The position numbers and the translations under genes were made by a program. This document shows, piece by piece, positions 16,869 through 24,384 of a DNA stretch of 64,000 bases (the first letter of the stretch is position 1; each line of letters begins with the position of its first letter). The DNA is from Wenjunlia tyrosinilytica (lineage in GTDB: Bacteria > Actinomycetota > Actinomycetes > Streptomycetales > Streptomycetaceae), in the NCBI RefSeq assembly GCF_014646055.1, contig NZ_BMMS01000012.1, positions 62,001 to 126,000 of the forward strand, read 5' to 3'. The notes beneath the pieces are model-generated. The model was not told the origin of the DNA. It saw only the letters and a program-made list of their open reading frames with translations, and searched no databases.

Positions 16869-18164
16869 GTGAGCACCACACTCGAGTCCCGGCTCGCGGC
16901 TCTGCGCGGAAGCGCGCCGCCGCGGCCCATGGACGCGCGCACCCTGGCGGCGCTGGCCGCCAACCCCGGCTGCGGGCGCCGGGCCCTGCTCGACGCGGCG
17001 GGAGTCGACAAGGGGGCGGTGGCCGAACACCTGGGCAGACCCGCGCCGTTCGGGCAGTCCCAGTTCTCGATCGTGCGGGGCAACGCGTTCGAGGCACGGG
17101 TCAAGGCCGACGGCTGCGCGGAGTTGCTGCGGCTGCTGTGCGAACGGCTGGGCCTGCCCGCCCCGGACGAGGCCGCGCTGCCCGACCTGTCGGCGGTCGG
17201 CCCGGCCGGGCGCGCGGAGCGGACCCGGCAGGCGCTGGAGGAGGCCACGGCCGCGGGCGGCTGGTCGCTGCTCGACCATCCGATGCTGCGCCTGGAGGTC
17301 GCCGGGTCGGCGGTCCACCTGGAGCCGGACGCCGTCGTCGTGCGGCCCGACGGGCGCTGGACGGTGGTGGAGATCAAGTCGTTCCCGATCCTCGACGGCT
17401 GCGCCGACCCCGCGAAGGTGGGGGCCGCGGCGCGGCAGTCGGCGGTGTACGTGCTGGCGCTGCGCGCGCTCGCGGAGCGGATCGGCCGGGGAGAGCCCGA
17501 GCACACCGTGGTGCTGGTCTGCCCGAAGGACTTCTCCAACCTCCCGACGTGCGCGGCGGTGGACGTCCGCAAGCAGCTTTCGGTCACCGTGCGGCAGCTC
17601 ACGAGGCTCACGAGGGTCGAGGACATCGTCTCGGAGCTGCCGGAGGGCACCACTTTCGACCTGGCGCTCGACGACGACCGCAGGACGCCTCGGCGGCCGG
17701 TCGAGGAGCTGGCCGCCGCGGTCGACGCCGTGCCGGCGGCGTACGCCCCCGACTGCCTGTCCGTGTGCGAGCTGGCGTTCCACTGCCGCGCCCGCGCCCA
17801 TGAGTGCGGGGCGGTGGAAGCGCTGGGGCGCGGTGTGCGCGGAGAGTTGGGGGCACTGGCTTCCGTGGACGAGGTCCTGGCCGCCGCCGCTGCGGGACTT
17901 GGCGGGGCGTGGCAGGCGGACGGCGAGGGGAGCGCGCCCGCGGAACACGTGAGCGGCGGGGGCTGCGGGGTCGGCGGGGGTACCGACGCGCACGGGTACG
18001 CCGAGGACGGCGGGGACTTCGGCGGCGGGGACTTCGGCGGCGGGGACTTCAGCGGCGGGGACCGCCGGGACTTCGGGGACGACGCGGTGACCTGGCGGCT
18101 GCGTGAGGCGGCCCGGCTGCGGGCGGAGGCGCTGGCGGGCACCGCCGCGGGTGGCCGGGCATGA
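16869..18164 (+). CDS. PD-(D/E)XK nuclease with Cas4/Dna2/AddB-like iron-sulfur cysteines
   Basis: A 431-residue predicted DNA nuclease. The catalytic core is Asp154 in LEPDAVVV and Glu168/Lys170 in VVEIKSF, with the downstream Gln of the RecB-type motif in ARQSAVYVLAL. One N-terminal Cys (Cys35 in NPGCGRRALL) precedes the core, and Cys296, Cys300, Cys306 and Cys313 follow it. This N-Cys plus C-terminal Cys cluster is how Cas4, AddB and Dna2 hold a 4Fe-4S cluster around the nuclease. A Gly/Asp-rich repeat (18009-18062) lies in the C-terminal linker. GTG start 16869. It overlaps the next gene by 4 bp and belongs to a three-gene operon with a helicase. Function inferred as DNA end processing, repair or defence. 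Confidence 0.85.
   Translation: MSTTLESRLAALRGSAPPRPMDARTLAALAANPGCGRRALLDAAGVDKGAVAEHLGRPAPFGQSQFSIVRGNAFEARVKADGCAELLRLLCERLGLPAPDEAALPDLSAVGPAGRAERTRQALEEATAAGGWSLLDHPMLRLEVAGSAVHLEPDAVVVRPDGRWTVVEIKSFPILDGCADPAKVGAAARQSAVYVLALRALAERIGRGEPEHTVVLVCPKDFSNLPTCAAVDVRKQLSVTVRQLTRLTRVEDIVSELPEGTTFDLALDDDRRTPRRPVEELAAAVDAVPAAYAPDCLSVCELAFHCRARAHECGAVEALGRGVRGELGALASVDEVLAAAAAGLGGAWQADGEGSAPAEHVSGGGCGVGGGTDAHGYAEDGGDFGGGDFGGGDFSGGDRRDFGDDAVTWRLREAARLRAEALAGTAAGGRA
18009..18062 (+). repeat. 15-bp in-frame tandem repeat in nuclease gene
   Basis: Three to four imperfect copies of a GGCGGCGGGGACTTC unit encode GGGDF repeats between the nuclease cluster and the C-terminal helix. It is likely a flexible linker and variable in length between strains. 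Confidence 0.8.
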
Positions 18165-19696
18165 GCCTGATCGCCACGCTGGCGCGGATGGAGGCGCTGC
18201 GGGAGGGCCGGGCGCGGCCGCTGGCCACGGTGCGGCACCGGCATCTGTCGGAGCGCCCGATGGTCTTCGTGCCCCTGACCACCGCGGGTGAGGCCGGAGC
18301 GCCGCTGGGGGCGCTGTTCGGCACGGACCGGGAGGAGCCGACGCTGCTCGTCGTGCCGCAGCCGCGCGACCGCGACCTGCGGTTCGCCTTCCTGGCGCAG
18401 CTGGCGCAGGGGATGCTGCCGTACCTCGAGGGGTACGCCGACGACGTCGACGTGGAAGTGAGGAAGGGCAAGGACCCGGAGACGGGCGAGCCGGTCGAGG
18501 TGGAGCGCGAGCTGTGCCGGGACGCCCCGCAGTTGCTCGTCCCCAATGGCTCGGGAGTGCGGTACGTCCGCCTGCTGGGCCGCTCCATGCGCTTTCGCCG
18601 CACCGCGGAGGAGGCGCCCGACGAGCCGTACCCGGTGCCGTCGCGGGTGCCGCTGCTCGGCCGGTGGATGACCCACTTCGGCGAGCGGGCGCTGACCCCC
18701 GGCTCGTGCCTGCTGGTGTCGATGACCGACCTGCTCTCCCGCCACTGGGCGAGCGGCCAGAGCGGCCTCGAGGACCAGCACCTGGGCGCGCTGCTGGCGT
18801 GGCTCGATCCCCCGCCGGGCGTGCACGGCTCCGAGGCGGCGCTGCGGGCGGAGACCGCCAGGGACGAACGCGGCCTGCTGGAGTGCCCGCCCGCGGGCCC
18901 GGCCACCGACCCGGCGTTCGACAACAAGCTGCTCGCTCCGGCGATCACCCGCTACGACGCGGGGCTCTCAGGCGCGGAACGGGCGGTGAGGGATCTCGTC
19001 GGGAGCCAGCTGCGGCCCACCTGGGACCACGTGTGGCGCGGGCTGGACCTGCTGCGTGAGCTGCCGCCTGGAGACAGGGTGGCGGCTCGCTGGGAGGGCG
19101 ACCGCTGGTCGTACACCGGCCACCGGGACCGCCTTCGCGCGGGCGAGCCCCCGCAGCCGAAGCGGGACGACGCGGTGACGGCGGCGGCAAAGCTGGTGCG
19201 GCGCGAGACCGACCAGGTGCGCCTGGACGCCCACGAGGCCCTGGACGATCCGCTGGTCATGGCCGAACGGCGCCTGGCGGGCGAGGCGTTCGCCGGTGAG
19301 GTCGTCGCGGTCGAGATGGCGTACAGCGAGGGGCGCTCGCCCCGGCCGCGGCCGCTGGTGTCGGTGAGCACACACGACCGTCCGCATGTGGAGCCGGGCA
19401 CGCGGGTGTTCCGGCGGCTCGCGGGCAAGGCGCAGGAGGCGCAGGTCGCGGCGGCCGAGCCCGGCCTGGTGGTGGTCCGGCTGGTCAACCAGATGGGGCG
19501 CGGCAGGGTCCCGGCCGAGGGCACGGTGCCCGAGCCCGGCGACGTGGTGTGCCTGACGGCGTTCGAGCACGACCCCCGGCCGGCCGCTCCGCTGCCCCCG
19601 CCGGAGGAGACACCGTGGACGCACGGCGGACCGCCCGGCGAGGCCGCCATGGGCGCCTCCGCACCCGACCCGCACACCGCGGAGGACTACCTGTGA
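18161..19696 (+). CDS. Unknown 511-aa protein in nuclease/helicase operon
   Basis: A soluble, acidic protein with no signal peptide, membrane helix or recognisable enzymatic motif. Visible blocks: FVPLTTAGEAGAPLGALFG, a basic/acidic central region, DNKLLAPAITRYDAGLSGAERAV, and a C-terminal part (about 370-470) with alternating beta strands such as PRPLVSVSTHDRPHVEPGTRVF and EPGDVVCLTAFEHD. The last could be an OB- or SH3-like nucleic-acid-binding domain. It overlaps the nuclease gene by 4 bp (ATGA) and the helicase by 4 bp (GTGA), so all three are translationally coupled and probably form one complex. Function unknown; a DNA-binding or bridging subunit is an inference. Confidence 0.75.
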   Translation: MSLIATLARMEALREGRARPLATVRHRHLSERPMVFVPLTTAGEAGAPLGALFGTDREEPTLLVVPQPRDRDLRFAFLAQLAQGMLPYLEGYADDVDVEVRKGKDPETGEPVEVERELCRDAPQLLVPNGSGVRYVRLLGRSMRFRRTAEEAPDEPYPVPSRVPLLGRWMTHFGERALTPGSCLLVSMTDLLSRHWASGQSGLEDQHLGALLAWLDPPPGVHGSEAALRAETARDERGLLECPPAGPATDPAFDNKLLAPAITRYDAGLSGAERAVRDLVGSQLRPTWDHVWRGLDLLRELPPGDRVAARWEGDRWSYTGHRDRLRAGEPPQPKRDDAVTAAAKLVRRETDQVRLDAHEALDDPLVMAERRLAGEAFAGEVVAVEMAYSEGRSPRPRPLVSVSTHDRPHVEPGTRVFRRLAGKAQEAQVAAAEPGLVVVRLVNQMGRGRVPAEGTVPEPGDVVCLTAFEHDPRPAAPLPPPEETPWTHGGPPGEAAMGASAPDPHTAEDYL

Positions 19697-21021
19697 CCGC
19701 TCCCGTGGGAGACCCGTCGGCGGAGGCCGCCAGGGTCACCGAGGAGATCCTGCACGACACCCTGCACAGCCCCCGCCGCGGTGTCGTGGTGGACTCCCCG
19801 CCCGGAGCGGGGAAGTCGACGCTGGTGGTGCGGGCGGCGCGTGAGCTGGCCGCGGCGGGCGAGAAGCCGATGGTGGTGGCGCAGACCAACAGCCAGGTGG
19901 ACGACCTGGTGAAACGGCTGGCGAAGGAGGATCCTCGGCTCCCGATCGGGCGCCTGCACGGAAGCGACTCCCCGCCGGACCCGGCTCTGTCCGAGCTGCC
20001 CTCGGTGGTGCTGTCCTCCTCCGTGGGGGACCTGGCCGGGCGCGAGGTGGTGATCGCCACGGCGGCGAAGTGGGCGTTCGTCAAGGATGTCCCGGCGTGG
20101 CGGCACGCCATCGTGGACGAGGCGTACCAGATGCGCTCGGACGCGTTGCTGAAGGTGGCCGGGCTCTTCGAGCGGGCGCTGTTCGTGGGCGATCCGGGCC
20201 AGCTCGACCCGTTCACGGTCGTGGGCGCCGACCAGTGGGCGGGGCTGTCGTACGATCCCTCGGCGAGCGCGGTGGTCACCCTGCTCGCCCACAACCCCGA
20301 GCTGCCGCAGCACCGGCTGCCCGTGTCCTGGCGGCTGCCCGCGTCGGCGGCGCGGCTGGTCTCGGACGCGTTCTACCCCTACACCCCCTTCCGCGCGGGC
20401 ACCGGTCATGAGGACCGGCGGCTGTCCTTCGCGGCGGCGGGCGACGGATCGGCCCACGACCGCGTCCTGGATCTGGCCGCCGAGTCGGGCTGGGGGCTGC
20501 TGGAGCTCCCGGAGCGGCGCACGGTCCGTACCGACCCCGAGGCGGTGGCGGCGGTGGCCACCTTGGTGCGGCGGCTGCTGGACCGGGGAGGGCGGACCCT
20601 GTCGGAGAAGGGCACGGCGGCGCTGACGGCGGACCGGATCGCGGTCGGCACGGCGCACCGGGACCAGGCGGCGGCCGTGCGCTCGGCCCTTGCCGGGCTG
20701 GGGGTGGCCGGGGTCACCGTGGACACCGCCAACCGCCTCCAGGGCCAGGAGTACGACGTGACCGTGGTCCTGCACCCGCTGTCGGGGCGGCCGGACGCGA
20801 CCGCGTTCCATCTGGAGACCGGGCGGCTGTGCGTGCTCGCCTCGCGGCACCGGCACGCCTGCGTGGTGGTCTCGAGGGCGGGGGTGGAGCGGCTGCTGGA
20901 CGAGCACCCGTCGACGGAGCCCGTGCAGCTGGGGGTGACCGTGAAGTTCCCGGACGGCTGGGAGGCGAACCACGCCGTGCTGGCCCACCTCAACGAGCGC
21001 CGGGTGCGGTACCGCCCGTGA
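19693..21021 (+). CDS. Superfamily-1 DNA helicase (Upf1/Dna2-like ATPase)
   Basis: A 442-residue helicase with the SF1 motifs in order: Walker A SPPGAGKS (35-42), motif Ia VVAQTNSQVDDL, Walker B VDEAYQ (about 141-146), motif III LFVGDPGQLDP (163-173), motif IV VSWRLP (211-216), motif V around VDTANRLQGQEYDV, and motif VI around VLASRHRH. The compact size and motif III resemble the Upf1/Dna2 SF1B group rather than UvrD. GTG 19693 overlaps the preceding stop. With the iron-sulfur nuclease two genes upstream, the operon encodes the two activities that eukaryotic Dna2 carries in one chain. The product is presumably an ATP-driven translocase feeding the nuclease. Confidence 0.88.
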   Translation: MTAPVGDPSAEAARVTEEILHDTLHSPRRGVVVDSPPGAGKSTLVVRAARELAAAGEKPMVVAQTNSQVDDLVKRLAKEDPRLPIGRLHGSDSPPDPALSELPSVVLSSSVGDLAGREVVIATAAKWAFVKDVPAWRHAIVDEAYQMRSDALLKVAGLFERALFVGDPGQLDPFTVVGADQWAGLSYDPSASAVVTLLAHNPELPQHRLPVSWRLPASAARLVSDAFYPYTPFRAGTGHEDRRLSFAAAGDGSAHDRVLDLAAESGWGLLELPERRTVRTDPEAVAAVATLVRRLLDRGGRTLSEKGTAALTADRIAVGTAHRDQAAAVRSALAGLGVAGVTVDTANRLQGQEYDVTVVLHPLSGRPDATAFHLETGRLCVLASRHRHACVVVSRAGVERLLDEHPSTEPVQLGVTVKFPDGWEANHAVLAHLNERRVRYRP

Positions 21022-21075: not shown

Positions 21076-21291
21076 CGCGCCGCGGCGGGCCCGGCCCGGC
21101 CACCGGCTTGACGCGGCCGGCTTGACCCTGCCGCCCCTGGCCCGGCCGTCCCGCACCGACCGCACCGACCGCAGGCTCGGCCTGGCCCGGCCGCCCCTCG
21201 CCCGCTCCGCCCCGGCCCCGACCGAGGTCGCCGCAGGGGTCTTGCGCCCGCAAGGACAATGGAAGAGATCAGAACGACGGAGGTTCCACGC

Positions 21292-21660
21292 ATGGCAGAT
21301 CCGCAGTCGTCCCGACACGAGGGGCGCCCCGACCAGCAGCGCCGCCTGCGCCCCGCTCCGCTGCTGTTCGAGCCCGGTCAGCAGGAGAGCGGTCCGGAGC
21401 ACTTCTTCGACCTGGAGTCGATGGAGGACGCCGGCGAGCTGCTGGACCGGTCGACGGAGCTGCTGCTGGCGTTCCGGGCCGCGGCGGAGCGCGCGATGGA
21501 GTTCCAGGCCCTGGCGGCGGCCCAGCTCGCCGATCCCCGGCGCTTCGACCAGGTGTCGTTCGAGGCCATCGCCGAGCGCGCGGACTGGACCCCGGACTAC
21601 GCCAAGAAGATGGTCGAGTTCGGCAGGGACCTCATCAAAAACGGTCGCGCCGGAGAATGA
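21292..21660 (+). CDS. Hypothetical protein, 122 aa
   Basis: A small, mostly helical, acidic protein beginning MADPQSSRHEGRP. The start is set by GGAGG 8 nt upstream; an ATG at 21259 lacks an RBS. The C-terminal half (SMEDAGELLDRSTELLLAFR ... AERADWTPDYAKKMVEFG) suggests a small helical bundle. It is 270 bp after the helicase and may or may not belong to that operon. No family recognised. Confidence 0.65.
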   Translation: MADPQSSRHEGRPDQQRRLRPAPLLFEPGQQESGPEHFFDLESMEDAGELLDRSTELLLAFRAAAERAMEFQALAAAQLADPRRFDQVSFEAIAERADWTPDYAKKMVEFGRDLIKNGRAGE

Positions 21661-21780
21661 ATCAGCCAGAAGCATTCACCTCTGGCATATGCGGGGGATC
21701 GTAGCGCATCACCCCCTCCCTTGTACGCAATTCAACGAATGTCCCATTCCTGAAGCACGCGCTTGGCCACGCTGTGGGCC

Positions 21781-22374
21781 ATGGATGGTTGGGACAACGG
21801 ACTCTGGGAAGCCGCCGACTCGGTCGAGTACGTGACCGCGGAGGGGGCCGCCTGGCTCGCTTCGTCGAGCGACTTCCCGCGCAGTGTGCGAGCGCTGTGG
21901 ACGGCCCGCCCATGGGCGCCCAGCGTGCTTCCGTGCGGGAACGTGTTCGACGTGATCAACCTGCCGGTGCTCTTCGGCCGGCGCGTGCTGGAGCAGCTGT
22001 GGTCGGCCGGCCCCGGCTGCGGCCCCGTGGCGGTGCACCGGAGCCGGCTGCTCGCCTTCTGCCGCCCCGGCACCGCCGACCGCCTCCCGTCCCTGCTGAC
22101 CTGGGAGGAGTGGGGACCTCGGGTGCCCGCGATGCTCTGCCACGGCGCCGGTGACGCAGTAACGATTCCGCCTCTGCACCGGATGACCAACATCCCGTCG
22201 CGGTGGGTGGTGGCCCCCGACACCGGCGACCCCTGGCTGCCCGGTCCCGACGTGCTGATCTGGGCCTGCGTCCGCGCCGCCCGGGCCGAGGCGGCGGCCC
22301 TCGGGAGCGCCCCCGAGGCCTCGCGCCCCCGTGTGCGCCAAACCGATTTTTCGTCGCCCCGGACTGGATGCTAA
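21781..22374 (+). CDS. Small bifunctional primase/polymerase-like protein
   Basis: A 197-residue soluble protein starting MDGWDNGLWEAADSVEY; a TTG at 21763 would add six residues, and neither start has a clear RBS. The blocks VLPCGNVFDVINLPVLFGRR, GPVAVHRSRLLAFCRPG and DAVTIPPLHRMTNIPSRWVV resemble short Streptomyces proteins annotated as the N-terminal domain of bifunctional DNA primase/polymerase. The metal-binding acidic residues of active primases are not evident, so catalysis is doubtful. It ends 18 bp before tRNA-Lys, an arrangement that looks conserved in the genus (from memory). Confidence 0.7.
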   Translation: MDGWDNGLWEAADSVEYVTAEGAAWLASSSDFPRSVRALWTARPWAPSVLPCGNVFDVINLPVLFGRRVLEQLWSAGPGCGPVAVHRSRLLAFCRPGTADRLPSLLTWEEWGPRVPAMLCHGAGDAVTIPPLHRMTNIPSRWVVAPDTGDPWLPGPDVLIWACVRAARAEAAALGSAPEASRPRVRQTDFSSPRTGC

Positions 22375-22392: not shown

Positions 22393-22465
22393 GCGCCGCT
22401 AGCTCAACTGGCAGAGCAGCTGGCTCTTAACCAGCGGGTTCGGGGTTCGAGTCCCTGGCGGCGCA
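22393..22465 (+). tRNA. tRNA-Lys (anticodon CTT)
   Basis: Acceptor GCGCCGC (22393-22399) pairs perfectly with GCGGCGC (22458-22464), with discriminator A at 22465. The anticodon stem GCTGG/CCAGC holds loop CTCTTAA with CTT at 22426-22428. The T arm has loop TTCGAGT. CCA is not encoded. tRNA genes are common integration sites, but I see no integrase or repeated 3' end nearby. Confidence 0.98.
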
Positions 22466-22488
22466 CTCACGGTCCAACCGTTGACTTG

Positions 22489-22596: not shown

Positions 22597-23400
22597 TCAC
22601 CGCTGCCGTTTGAAGGCCTCGCGGGCGAGGTGGTCCTCGGGCGGGAGGACGGCTCCGTCCTGGTCGACCGCCATGGGGCCCTCCTTGGCCCCGGGTGCGC
22701 CGTCGGCGGCGGGAACGGGGCTGGCCAGGCGCTCGGCGTAGGGGGAGTCGGGATGGGCGGCGAGCACGCGGACCCGTGCGTCGCCCGAGCCACGGGGGGA
22801 GACCGGGACCACCGCGACCGGCAGGCCCCGCTGGTCGGTCACGAACAGCTCGAAGTCGTCGAATCTGAAGTGGTCGATGTCCACGATCGGCTTCGGGTAG
22901 TGGTGGTAGCCCGCCGCTTTCGGGAGTACCCCCGAGTGGGTGCCCGCCGGCAGCGGAACCGAGGCGTTGAAGATCGAGTCCGTCCACTCGGCCACCTGCT
23001 CGGCGGTCTTGATGGGGGTCTCCAGCAGGCGCTCACCGTGGTCGTAGCCGAATTCGGCGTACCCGGGGAGGGTGTCGGGGAACGCCTTGACCACCCGGGC
23101 GGCGCTGCGGCGCATCCGGTCCACCTTCTTCGGGTCCGCGCAGAACTGCGCCGACCACTCGACGCCGAGCGGCATGAACAGGCACTGCCATCCGTCGCTG
23201 TCCTTGACCCACACTCCCCCGCCGTGGTGGTCCTGGTACGGGCCGGGGGCGAAGGCCCACTCGGCGGTCGTGTCGACGAGCTTGCGCATCAGCTTCTTGC
23301 TCGCCCGGTACTGCGCGCTCTCGGTGCGCGGCGGATGGTCCGCCACGGAGATCGTCCAGGGGAAGTCCTCGTGCCGCGGGTGGCTGCCGTCCGTGCCCAT
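22597..23400 (-). CDS. Hypothetical protein linked to a caspase-like protease (DUF6424-like)
   Basis: A 267-residue soluble protein beginning MGTDGSHPRHEDFPWTISV. It contains WAFAPGPYQDHHGGGVWVKD, VEWSAQFCADPKKVD, DSIFNASVPLP and HHYPKPIVDIDHFRFDDF. The sequence reminds me of a Streptomyces family labelled DUF6424; that label is from memory. ATG 23400 lies 14 bp after the metacaspase stop, so the two are one operon. It could be a substrate, inhibitor or effector of the protease. Nothing in the sequence proves this. Confidence 0.75.
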   Translation of the reverse strand: MGTDGSHPRHEDFPWTISVADHPPRTESAQYRASKKLMRKLVDTTAEWAFAPGPYQDHHGGGVWVKDSDGWQCLFMPLGVEWSAQFCADPKKVDRMRRSAARVVKAFPDTLPGYAEFGYDHGERLLETPIKTAEQVAEWTDSIFNASVPLPAGTHSGVLPKAAGYHHYPKPIVDIDHFRFDDFELFVTDQRGLPVAVVPVSPRGSGDARVRVLAAHPDSPYAERLASPVPAADGAPGAKEGPMAVDQDGAVLPPEDHLAREAFKRQR

Positions 23401-23414
23401 GTCGTGGCCCGCTC

Positions 23415-24272
23415 TCAGATCGTGAACGGTGTCTGGCGCAGGAACGCGCTGTCCAGGTGCCCCACCCTCAGCAGGTTGGGGATCTGGTTCATCGGCATCT
23501 TCTTCATGATCTGGCGGTGGAACGCCCGGTAGCCGCCCTTGAAGTGACCGCCGTTCCAGGTCTCGAGGAGCTTGGAGGTGAACAGGCCGTTGCGCAGGCC
23601 GTCGGCGGAGGTCTGGCAGTCCTGGCAGCCGGAGATGAGCAGGATCGAGGCGGCGATGTCGGCGGCGTCCTTGGCCGGTTGTTCGGCCTGGATCCCGTCG
23701 TAGAGCTTCTTGTCCCTCTTGTTGACCTTGGCCTGGGTCTTCAGGGGCATCACCCGGATGCGCTTCTCGACCTCCGCCGCGTCCTGCGTCTGGAACTGCC
23801 TCTCCAGCGCGGCCGGGCTGAGCAGCTGGGGCACCTCCTTGACGACCGACCCGCTGTGACAGCTGTCGGAGAACACCAGGATGCGGACACCGGCGGCGAA
23901 GGTCCCCAGAAGGGCGAAGAGCTCGTCGTCGACGAACTGCCGGTCGTGGAGCACCCAGGTCTCGTCCAGCCGGTCCGGCTCGTCCTCCGGGCCGTTGAGG
24001 TCCTCCACCTGCCCGCCGTGGCCGGAGTACGTCAGGAGGAGCACGTCCTCCTTCTTCAGCGACCCGGCCGCCTCCCGCAGCGCGGCGGTGACTCTCTTCG
24101 CGGTGGCGTCGGCGGTGAGCAGCGGAGGGGTGACGGTGAAGCCGGAGTTCTTGGCGAGCTGCGCCATGTCCTGCGCGTCCTGCTCGCAGGCGATGAGCTC
24201 GCCGTCCCAGCCCTCGTACCGGGCGGGATCGACTGCGTTGAGGCCGATGTGGATGGACAGACCAGTGGGCAT
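23415..24272 (-). CDS. Caspase-family (peptidase C14) metacaspase-like protease
   Basis: A 285-residue cytoplasmic cysteine protease of clan CD. The p20-like fold begins with GLSIHIGLNAVDPARYEGW. The catalytic dyad is His85 in TYSGHGG and Cys138 in FSDSCHSG, and the acidic residue that follows the His motif in metacaspases lies in DLNGPEDEPD. There is no pro-domain, transmembrane anchor or WD/NACHT extension. ATG 24272 is preceded by GAGGAGAG, which decides the start against an upstream frame. It is followed by the unknown gene at 22597. Bacterial metacaspases cleave after Arg/Lys and some act in cell death or defence; its role here is inferred only. Confidence 0.9.
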   Translation of the reverse strand: MPTGLSIHIGLNAVDPARYEGWDGELIACEQDAQDMAQLAKNSGFTVTPPLLTADATAKRVTAALREAAGSLKKEDVLLLTYSGHGGQVEDLNGPEDEPDRLDETWVLHDRQFVDDELFALLGTFAAGVRILVFSDSCHSGSVVKEVPQLLSPAALERQFQTQDAAEVEKRIRVMPLKTQAKVNKRDKKLYDGIQAEQPAKDAADIAASILLISGCQDCQTSADGLRNGLFTSKLLETWNGGHFKGGYRAFHRQIMKKMPMNQIPNLLRVGHLDSAFLRQTPFTI

Positions 24273-24384
24273 GGGGCTCTCCTCGACGCGGGCGGGACGA
24301 TCCACGGGGATGCGTTCCACGCTCCACCCAGGCGCTAATCAGTTCATAACACCAATCCCCCACCCAGCCCAGTCCCCCGACACG

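Follow-up and report, generated by a model that had tools for sequence, protein, structure and literature searches.

Three consecutive genes of Wenjunlia tyrosinilytica encode a nuclease (NUC), a third subunit (X) and a helicase core (HEL). They lie in a 64,000-nucleotide stretch of the 8.49-Mb genome (G000:C12:62001-126000), referred to here as the window. We propose, with a probability of roughly two in three, that this operon is a DNA2-type helicase-nuclease split into three polypeptides, with the core copy most likely having a housekeeping role in processing DNA ends or flaps and the accessory (second) copies most likely degrading invading DNA. The C-terminal part of X is predicted to form a barrel and stalk before the RecA core of HEL, which would make the gene order NUC-X-HEL the domain order of Dna2. 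A preliminary description of this DNA had called the operon split Dna2-like, a reading supported by the NUC fold, the C-terminal domain of X and this gene order. Because the parts tested are DNA2-like in all but the single chain, with nuclease, X and helicase being three open reading frames (ORFs) that each end in a stop codon, we class the operon with DNA2 and Bad as a split variant, and not as DNA2 itself.

Predicted structures of the three subunits

The AlphaFold model of NUC, built from 41 sequences, had a mean predicted local distance difference test score (pLDDT) of 81.5, with residues 346-402 disordered. Its highest-scoring structural match was Cas4 (VIA Z 10.7; model residues 3-315, 195 residues at 4.2 Å), followed by human EXO5 (9.4), the AddA nuclease domain (9.2; 130 residues, model 21-231 only), RecE (8.8), lambda exonuclease and AdnA (both 8.3), AddB (7.7) and Dna2 (6.9). 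The conserved residues were E75, D154, E168, K170, Q190 and Y194, with catalytic losses in one accessory branch. C296, C300 and C306 were each cysteine in all 113 aligned NUC sequences and C35 in 109, the other four being gapped there (truncated or mis-started). The cluster-type set is C35 plus C296-x3-C300-x5-C306, and in the predicted fold one conserved cysteine precedes the PD-(D/E)XK core and three follow it, which is the iron-staple arrangement. The earlier identification of a PD-(D/E)XK nuclease with Cas4/AddB/Dna2-style cysteines is borne out by the grouping of the model with Cas4, EXO5, AdnA and Dna2. Its list of cysteines was one too long: the four above are conserved, and Cys313 is present in the window NUC but is not among the conserved alignment columns. 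No family was found for NUC in Pfam, NCBIfam, PADLOC or PHROGs, and Pfam found no motor domain in it. Profile matches of NUC in the PDB were discarded, namely designed repeat proteins matched through a 31-residue helical stretch and a single-stranded-DNA-binding protein at E 0.45.

HEL scored above the Pfam cut-off with AAA_11, AAA_12 and others, and with UvrD_C_2 below the cut-off only. The only PDB sequences matched at E ≤ 0.01 were SMUBP-2 (IGHMBP2) and DNA2. Fifteen of the 16 motif residues tested were kept in 123/123 copies, and the sixteenth, S42, was threonine in two. HEL thus carries the motifs of a superfamily 1 (SF1) helicase of the UPF1/DNA2 type, in agreement with its first description as a compact SF1 helicase with all motifs. 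Among PADLOC models, HEL matched MkoA and MkoC weakly (29.6 and 27.9 bits), and the window NUC and X had no match at E ≤ 1.

X was modelled from 43 sequences with a mean pLDDT of 89.1. Residues ~334-485 aligned with IGHMBP2 4b3f 5-159 (VIA Z 10.5; 131 aligned, 5.2 Å) and with IGHMBP2 4b3g (9.8; 87 aligned, 2.2 Å). Both rows exceed the unrelated barrels, which start at VIA Z 8.5, and the first six rows were IGHMBP2 (two), Sen1 (three) and SETX. In the model, residues 334-485 resemble the barrel-and-stalk part of IGHMBP2, which lies ahead of its RecA core. We trust this match because the domain directly precedes a helicase of the same family, and because an oligonucleotide/oligosaccharide-binding (OB) fold with a stalk is a hallmark of the UPF1/DNA2-like family (PMC11090510). 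The predicted barrel/OB domain and stalk, carried by the preceding gene, would thus stand on the N-terminal side of RecA domain 1. HEL residues 28-80 align with IGHMBP2 205-257, just past the segment 5-159 covered by X, so that both genes together give the usual order of the family. Going by the model, the tail of X and HEL look like one split helicase. The 511-aa protein had been reported as unrecognised; this stands for its family assignment, with none in NCBIfam, PADLOC or PHROGs and only one sub-cut-off match in Pfam at E ≤ 0.1, and no longer for its C-terminal domain, now modelled as a UPF1/DNA2-type barrel and stalk. The X model had no match at E ≤ 0.001 in a viral fold library.

Together, these features suggest how the complex might work. 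NUC would cut single-stranded DNA as an iron-sulphur (Fe-S, 'iron-staple') nuclease. X would dock on HEL through its C-terminal stalk and barrel, completing one SF1B motor of the UPF1/DNA2-like family, and would link this motor to NUC through its N-terminal two thirds. If it works like DNA2 and Bad, the complex would load at single-strand/duplex junctions, run 5' to 3' and unwind, with NUC cutting the exposed strand. A UPF1/IGHMBP2/Senataxin-like motor with a nuclease could instead act on RNA or RNA-DNA hybrids, clearing R-loops or degrading foreign RNA. The X barrel is nearest to IGHMBP2 and then to Sen1 and SETX, and UPF1-like CoCoNuT helicases sit in systems predicted to target RNA (PMC11090510). 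However, NUC groups with DNA nucleases (Cas4, EXO5, AddAB, AdnAB) and the neighbours of the accessory copies are DNA systems (SbcCD, Wadjet and restriction-modification, R-M), which makes an RNA substrate improbable.

Distribution, gene coupling and accessory copies

NUC, X and a strong HEL match share the same 43 of 61 related genomes. The operon is present in 36 of 37 genomes of the window's family, in 7 of 14 of another family of the same order, and in none of 10 others. X was found in 233 of 246 genomes of the genus that we took for Streptomyces, in part because X is 90-91% identical between G382/G438 and a Streptomyces plasmid. Across the phylum its profile matched 16 of 396 genomes, including two from other classes. 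A HEL scan of named genomes gave the best 80 loci on which the contiguity counts rest, among them Nocardia, Actinomadura, Nonomuraea, Streptosporangium, Micromonospora, Actinoplanes and relatives. NUC-X-HEL was contiguous in 67 of these 80; in four NUC-X was near but parted from HEL, in eight the stretch retrieved contained HEL only and one was cut by a contig end. The survey of three-gene order proposed in the preliminary description thus finds the order widely kept, and even L061 and L062, at 20-33% identity to the window, retain it together with the 4-bp overlaps. The X reading in G690 contains an internal TGA.

Both 4-bp overlaps reported earlier for the window are confirmed by the ORF coordinates (Table 1). 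Among the collected loci open to assessment, a suitably placed start codon exists for a 4-bp overlap of NUC and X in 67 of 113 and for one of X and HEL in 81 of 114. HEL starts at a conserved GTG overlapping the X stop codon; a 490-aa ORF that begins at an upstream GTG (19549) merely extends this frame. Conservation across genomes shows that the NUC, X and HEL reading frames are real.

It is unlikely that the genes form a loose repair operon, with NUC-X as one unit and HEL acting as a helicase of its own. Such an arrangement would fit a set of loci, almost all from Micromonosporaceae, where HEL stands apart from NUC-X, and plasmid operons that join an X homologue and HEL without NUC. On the other hand, a whole-genome search of the eight HEL-only cases, the contig-cut case and G259 found X and NUC side by side in 10/10, so that NUC, X and HEL are co-present even when split, and X seems to carry a domain that HEL lacks. 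In Micromonosporaceae, HEL lies outside the operon while NUC-X is still paired (L113, L120, L122, L135 and the HEL-only loci), a natural experiment on which operon junction can break.

Many copies carry a gene of ~280 aa immediately upstream of NUC, which we named g0. It was found in 72 of 103 loci and in 3 of 61 relatives, always directly before NUC in the latter, and is absent from the window and from all 10 core-copy 20-kb loci. Neither of the two members tested matched a Pfam or NCBIfam family. The core family copies form one clade (17 copies, support 0.995) in a tree built from 110 concatenated copies; all of them lack g0, and the window copy is among them. Type A accessory copies form a clade of 12 with L052 and L053 (support 0.999) and type B copies a clade of 8 (support 1.0), all with g0. 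From this pattern, the presence of g0 may be ancestral.

We selected 18 accessory copies, 16 from genus genomes and two from Streptomyces plasmid records; they are a selection and not a census. All 18 have g0. PADLOC covered chosen neighbours of these loci, several loci being assigned by similarity to a scanned one (L162 only so) and L163 by a scan of two proteins. In type A (10 copies), a divergent SbcD-like gene precedes g0 in 10/10 (partial in L159, in pieces in L144), as it does in three further copies (L224, L226, L227). We take SbcCD to be the homologues of Mre11-Rad50. Outside the genus, SbcD/SbcC-like genes are again found next to the operon, differently arranged (L099, L052, L053; SbcC alone in L136). 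Six of the 18 accessory copies precede Wadjet operons, of type I in L143, L144 and L160 and of type II in L157, L159 and L161.

Another eight adjoin PprRE and PprDinG, members of the pPIWI-RE three-gene system, which is predicted to act in restriction (PMC3702460). These are the type B copies, in which a divergent PDDEXK_1 nuclease is followed by PprRE and PprDinG in 8/8, with Pfam/PADLOC calls on one representative each and the others called by similarity. A further PADLOC family lies downstream in six of the eight: Hma (L060), PD-Lambda-1 (L164), a GmrSD protein (L170), an SNF2 protein (L166, L167) and, in L169, a type III R-M pair whose Mod match is strong and whose Res scores weakly. Among the remaining copies, L059 is followed by a helicase with 235 bits to a type IIG R-M model and L158 by a UvrD-like helicase with up to 47 bits. 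PADLOC gave no match for three downstream proteins of L165, three of four L158 proteins, the two of L163 and a 1930-aa protein of L164. The distant copy L061 adjoins a type III R-M pair. As controls, six core copies from genomes that also have an accessory copy had none of 23 reference neighbour proteins within 20 kb. Judged by their location, the divergent copies with g0, often next to SbcCD and known defence systems, most likely degrade invading DNA. The preliminary choice between end processing, repair and defence is thereby narrowed, towards defence for the accessory copies and not for the window's own copy, which does not adjoin defence genes.

The NUC active site is complete in 17/17 core copies and 10/10 type A copies. 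In type B, K170 is replaced by Arg in 8/8, E168 by Leu and E75 by His in 6/8, and D154 by Gln in 2/8, while C35, C296, C300 and C306 are retained in 8/8 and the HEL motifs in all. In the other actinobacterial NUC sequences with a letter at these positions, K170 is kept in 73/73 and D154 and E168 in 71/73 each. Since the four cysteines are kept despite the catalytic loss, the presumed Fe-S part of NUC seems, from these sequences, to be needed where its chemistry is gone. Judged by eye from two sequences, the PDDEXK_1 protein adjoining type B copies seems to be a nuclease whose D...E-x-K motif is intact, with a CxxC-x5-C of its own. Type B copies thus allow one to ask what an Fe-S nuclease domain still does once its catalytic residues are lost.

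Several cassettes lie near replicon or contig ends. In G438 the cassette is 4.7-9.6 kb from the end of a contig of 8.27 Mb, where a Tap-like gene follows 6.4 kb past HEL, and in G398 and G472 it is 20-25 kb from the left contig end, with g0 and NUC again ~25 kb from the right end; the contig ends in these three genomes may be telomeres. On NZ_CP108489.1, a linear plasmid, the distance of the cassette from the end is 11-16 kb. Six further plasmid records carry g0, and the four examined are all linear Streptomyces plasmids (L153-L156). On these, a g0 homologue directly precedes a Tap-like gene and a small gene, presumably tpg, with an HU gene upstream in three of four. The Tap-like protein of L153 scored 307.6 bits with NF047542 (cut-off 600), and the other three are 67-74% identical over most of it. 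Among 199 genomes g0 was clear in 17, always beside NUC (an eighteenth match was weak), so g0 directly before tap is seen on plasmids only.

In eukaryotes, MRN-DNA2 is an end-resection machine. A doubtful reading is that accessory SbcCD, g0 and NUC-X-HEL form a portable bacterial counterpart of it that targets linear, protein-capped replicons at their ends. There, g0 would locate the blocked end for SbcCD to open; in type B, NUC would be a non-catalytic Fe-S subunit and the neighbouring PDDEXK_1 nuclease would be used instead. The g0 genes before Tap-like/tpg-like genes on four linear-plasmid records and the cassettes 5-25 kb from a contig end in three genomes are consistent with this. Against it, G453 lies ~0.52 Mb and the type B copies of G539, G521 and G359 lie 1.2-2.9 Mb from contig ends, in single- or long-contig genomes, and no clear g0 stands beside tap alone among the 199 genomes. 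Most other accessory copies are on draft contigs. Wadjet is enriched at Streptomyces chromosome ends (PMC10482375), so the end location of the cassette may simply follow its neighbours.

Role and surroundings of the core copy

The same genome encodes a separate pair of large PDDEXK_1 proteins, which we take for AdnAB-like. Our best guess is that the core copy, which lacks g0, would process DNA ends or flaps beside this AdnAB-like enzyme. The main rival is that the core copy is an immobilised defence system, fixed in the family, that degrades incoming phage or plasmid DNA. Its relatives elsewhere in the genus adjoin defence genes, and X has been lost from 13 of 246 genomes, as expected of a dispensable trait. 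However, no defence gene of the reference set adjoins any of the six core loci, PADLOC gave one weak match (caspase) among ten window neighbours, the active site is intact in every core copy and the neighbourhood is largely syntenic. Wadjet JetABCD genes are likewise absent from the six core loci and the ten scanned window neighbours. We therefore consider fixed defence possible and clearly less probable than end or flap processing. The preliminary description had raised the prospect of an operon core to all Streptomyces with a known housekeeping role; the operon proves near-core, and a known housekeeping role was not found.

Several results weigh against a split DNA2-type enzyme with a housekeeping core copy. 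The VIA scores of X with Sen1 and SETX (8.5-8.6) and with Dna2 (8.0) are level with unrelated barrels, IGHMBP2 alone standing out. Foldseek of X against the PDB gave no match at E ≤ 0.001 and a profile search of PDB sequences gave none, so the barrel assignment rests on the VIA structural comparison. Clear fold relatives were found for X residues ~334-485 only and for none of the ~330 N-terminal residues. The order of strands in this N-terminal part resembles that of a PD-(D/E)XK core, a likeness that has no other support and from which we conclude nothing. Of the 13 genus genomes in which X is missing, 11 pass limits of 90% completeness and 5% contamination, and the core copy is thus dispensable. 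The residue losses in type B suggest that NUC catalysis is not needed everywhere, and D154 is altered in two and E168 in two of the 73 other copies. Four of the 18 accessory copies (L059, L158, L162, L163) are without a clear Wadjet or pPIWI-RE neighbour, and the root order of the tree is weak, with support of 0.52-0.74 for the deepest branches. Finally, a search for LexA-like (8 fixed bases, one mismatch) and PafBC-like patterns up to 300 bp upstream of the 17 core copies found no LexA-type box in 16 and a single LexA-like match, in L175. There is thus no sign of SOS control, which we rejected for the core operon.

A 133-aa gene lies directly downstream of HEL. It adjoins the operon in each of the ten core-copy 20-kb loci inspected, in forward orientation in 8 and inverted in 2, and no family was found for it. 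Further downstream, a small protein (21763-22374, forward strand) matches Prim-Pol at 27.7 bits (cut-off 22.8) and adjoins a tRNA-Lys(CTT) gene. A relative of this protein is near the operon in 8 of the 10 core-copy loci, in one at 32% identity. The caspase-like protein is encoded on the reverse strand (23415-24320) and scored 30.8 bits with NF047832 (cut-off 140) and 25 bits with the PADLOC caspase model; a DUF6424 match is encoded just downstream of it, at about 22597-23382. Promoter, terminator and Rfam scans gave the tRNA as the sole feature.

Table 1. Features of the NUC-X-HEL operon and its flank in the window
Feature	Position	Strand	Basis
NUC, PD-(D/E)XK nuclease with four conserved cysteines, 431 aa	16869..18164	+	ORF, predicted fold, conservation
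C35, first presumed Fe-S ligand of NUC	16971..16973	+	Cys conservation
D154...E168-x-K170 catalytic motif of NUC	17328..17378	+	Conservation
C296-x3-C300-x5-C306, three other presumed Fe-S ligands of NUC	17754..17786	+	Cys conservation
NUC/X overlap, 4 bp	18161..18164	+	ORF coordinates
X, third subunit, 511 aa	18161..19696	+	ORF, conservation, model pLDDT 89.1
X residues 334-485, predicted UPF1/DNA2-type stalk and beta-barrel domain	19160..19615	+	VIA on model
X/HEL overlap, 4 bp, GTGA	19693..19696	+	ORF coordinates
HEL, SF1 UPF1/DNA2-like helicase RecA core, 442 aa	19693..21021	+	Pfam AAA_11/AAA_12, conserved motifs
HEL Walker A, PPGAGKS	19798..19818	+	Motif conservation
133-aa gene directly downstream of HEL	21259..21660	+	Adjacency in core-copy loci
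tRNA-Lys(CTT)	22393-22466	+	Neighbour of Prim-Pol-matching protein

Comparison with known systems

Identity with AddAB/AdnAB was rejected. The PD-(D/E)XK domain is shared, and the AdnA and AddB rows span NUC including its cysteine region. In contrast, the motor here is UPF1-like (AAA_11/AAA_12) and not UvrD-like, NUC has no fused motor and the genome has the separate candidate pair. A Cas4 of a CRISPR adaptation locus was rejected as well: the fold is Cas4-like, but no Cas protein is among the ten window neighbours scanned by PADLOC. A phage origin was also set aside, with no HEL match among 50,697 phage records and the null result of PHROGs for NUC and X.

CoCoNuT CnuH, a UPF1-like helicase in type IV restriction, resembles the operon in having an OB-fold and stalk within a predicted defence operon. 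It differs in that the OB-fold is within CnuH itself and in that these systems have the McrB-type GTPase CnuB (PMC11090510).

HEL had matches on 50 plasmid records in all. Plasmid operons of Xylanimonas (L145), Rhodococcus (L146), Cellulosimicrobium (L148) and Mycobacterium (L149) encode an AAA ATPase, a VWA-like protein (DUF2201 by Pfam on L146 only), a small protein, an X homologue and a HEL relative. The HEL relatives are 30-33% identical to HEL and are likewise preceded by an X homologue. An alignment of five plasmid X homologues matched X with an hhalign probability of 96.7 (E 3.6e-10), and single homologues gave E 0.01-0.02 (L146 and L149) and 8.5e-11 (L147). These operons differ in that no NUC match was found on the records and an AAA ATPase and a VWA-like protein are present instead. 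In Euzebya (L147), the X homologue and HEL follow a cytosine methyltransferase.

DNA2 is best known as one essential eukaryotic protein. It shares with the operon the order of nuclease, barrel/stalk and RecA core (5eaw, 5eax and 5ean rows) and the sequence match to HEL. It differs in being one chain, identity over the aligned parts is 10-13%, and Dna2 rows are the top match for neither NUC nor X. Bad, a single-chain bacterial DNA2-like helicase-nuclease of Geobacillus, has an iron-staple nuclease, an SF1B helicase and four cysteines, as in the operon, and adjoins a type III-like methyltransferase, as L061 and L169 do here (PMC7430649). Whereas Bad is one chain, the operon divides the nuclease, the stalk/barrel and the RecA core among three genes and has an additional N-terminal part in X, and operon copies outside the core clade mostly carry g0 as a fourth gene. 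The literature search found no published description of this operon, most subscription papers being outside its reach. The operon is a tractable system in which to ask which DNA2 parts do what and how a resection machine turns into a defence weapon. Bacterial DNA2-type enzymes have been described as sporadic, single-chain and of unknown role (PMC7430649); here, such parts are distributed over separate genes, which are near-core in a large bacterial family and recur next to defence genes.

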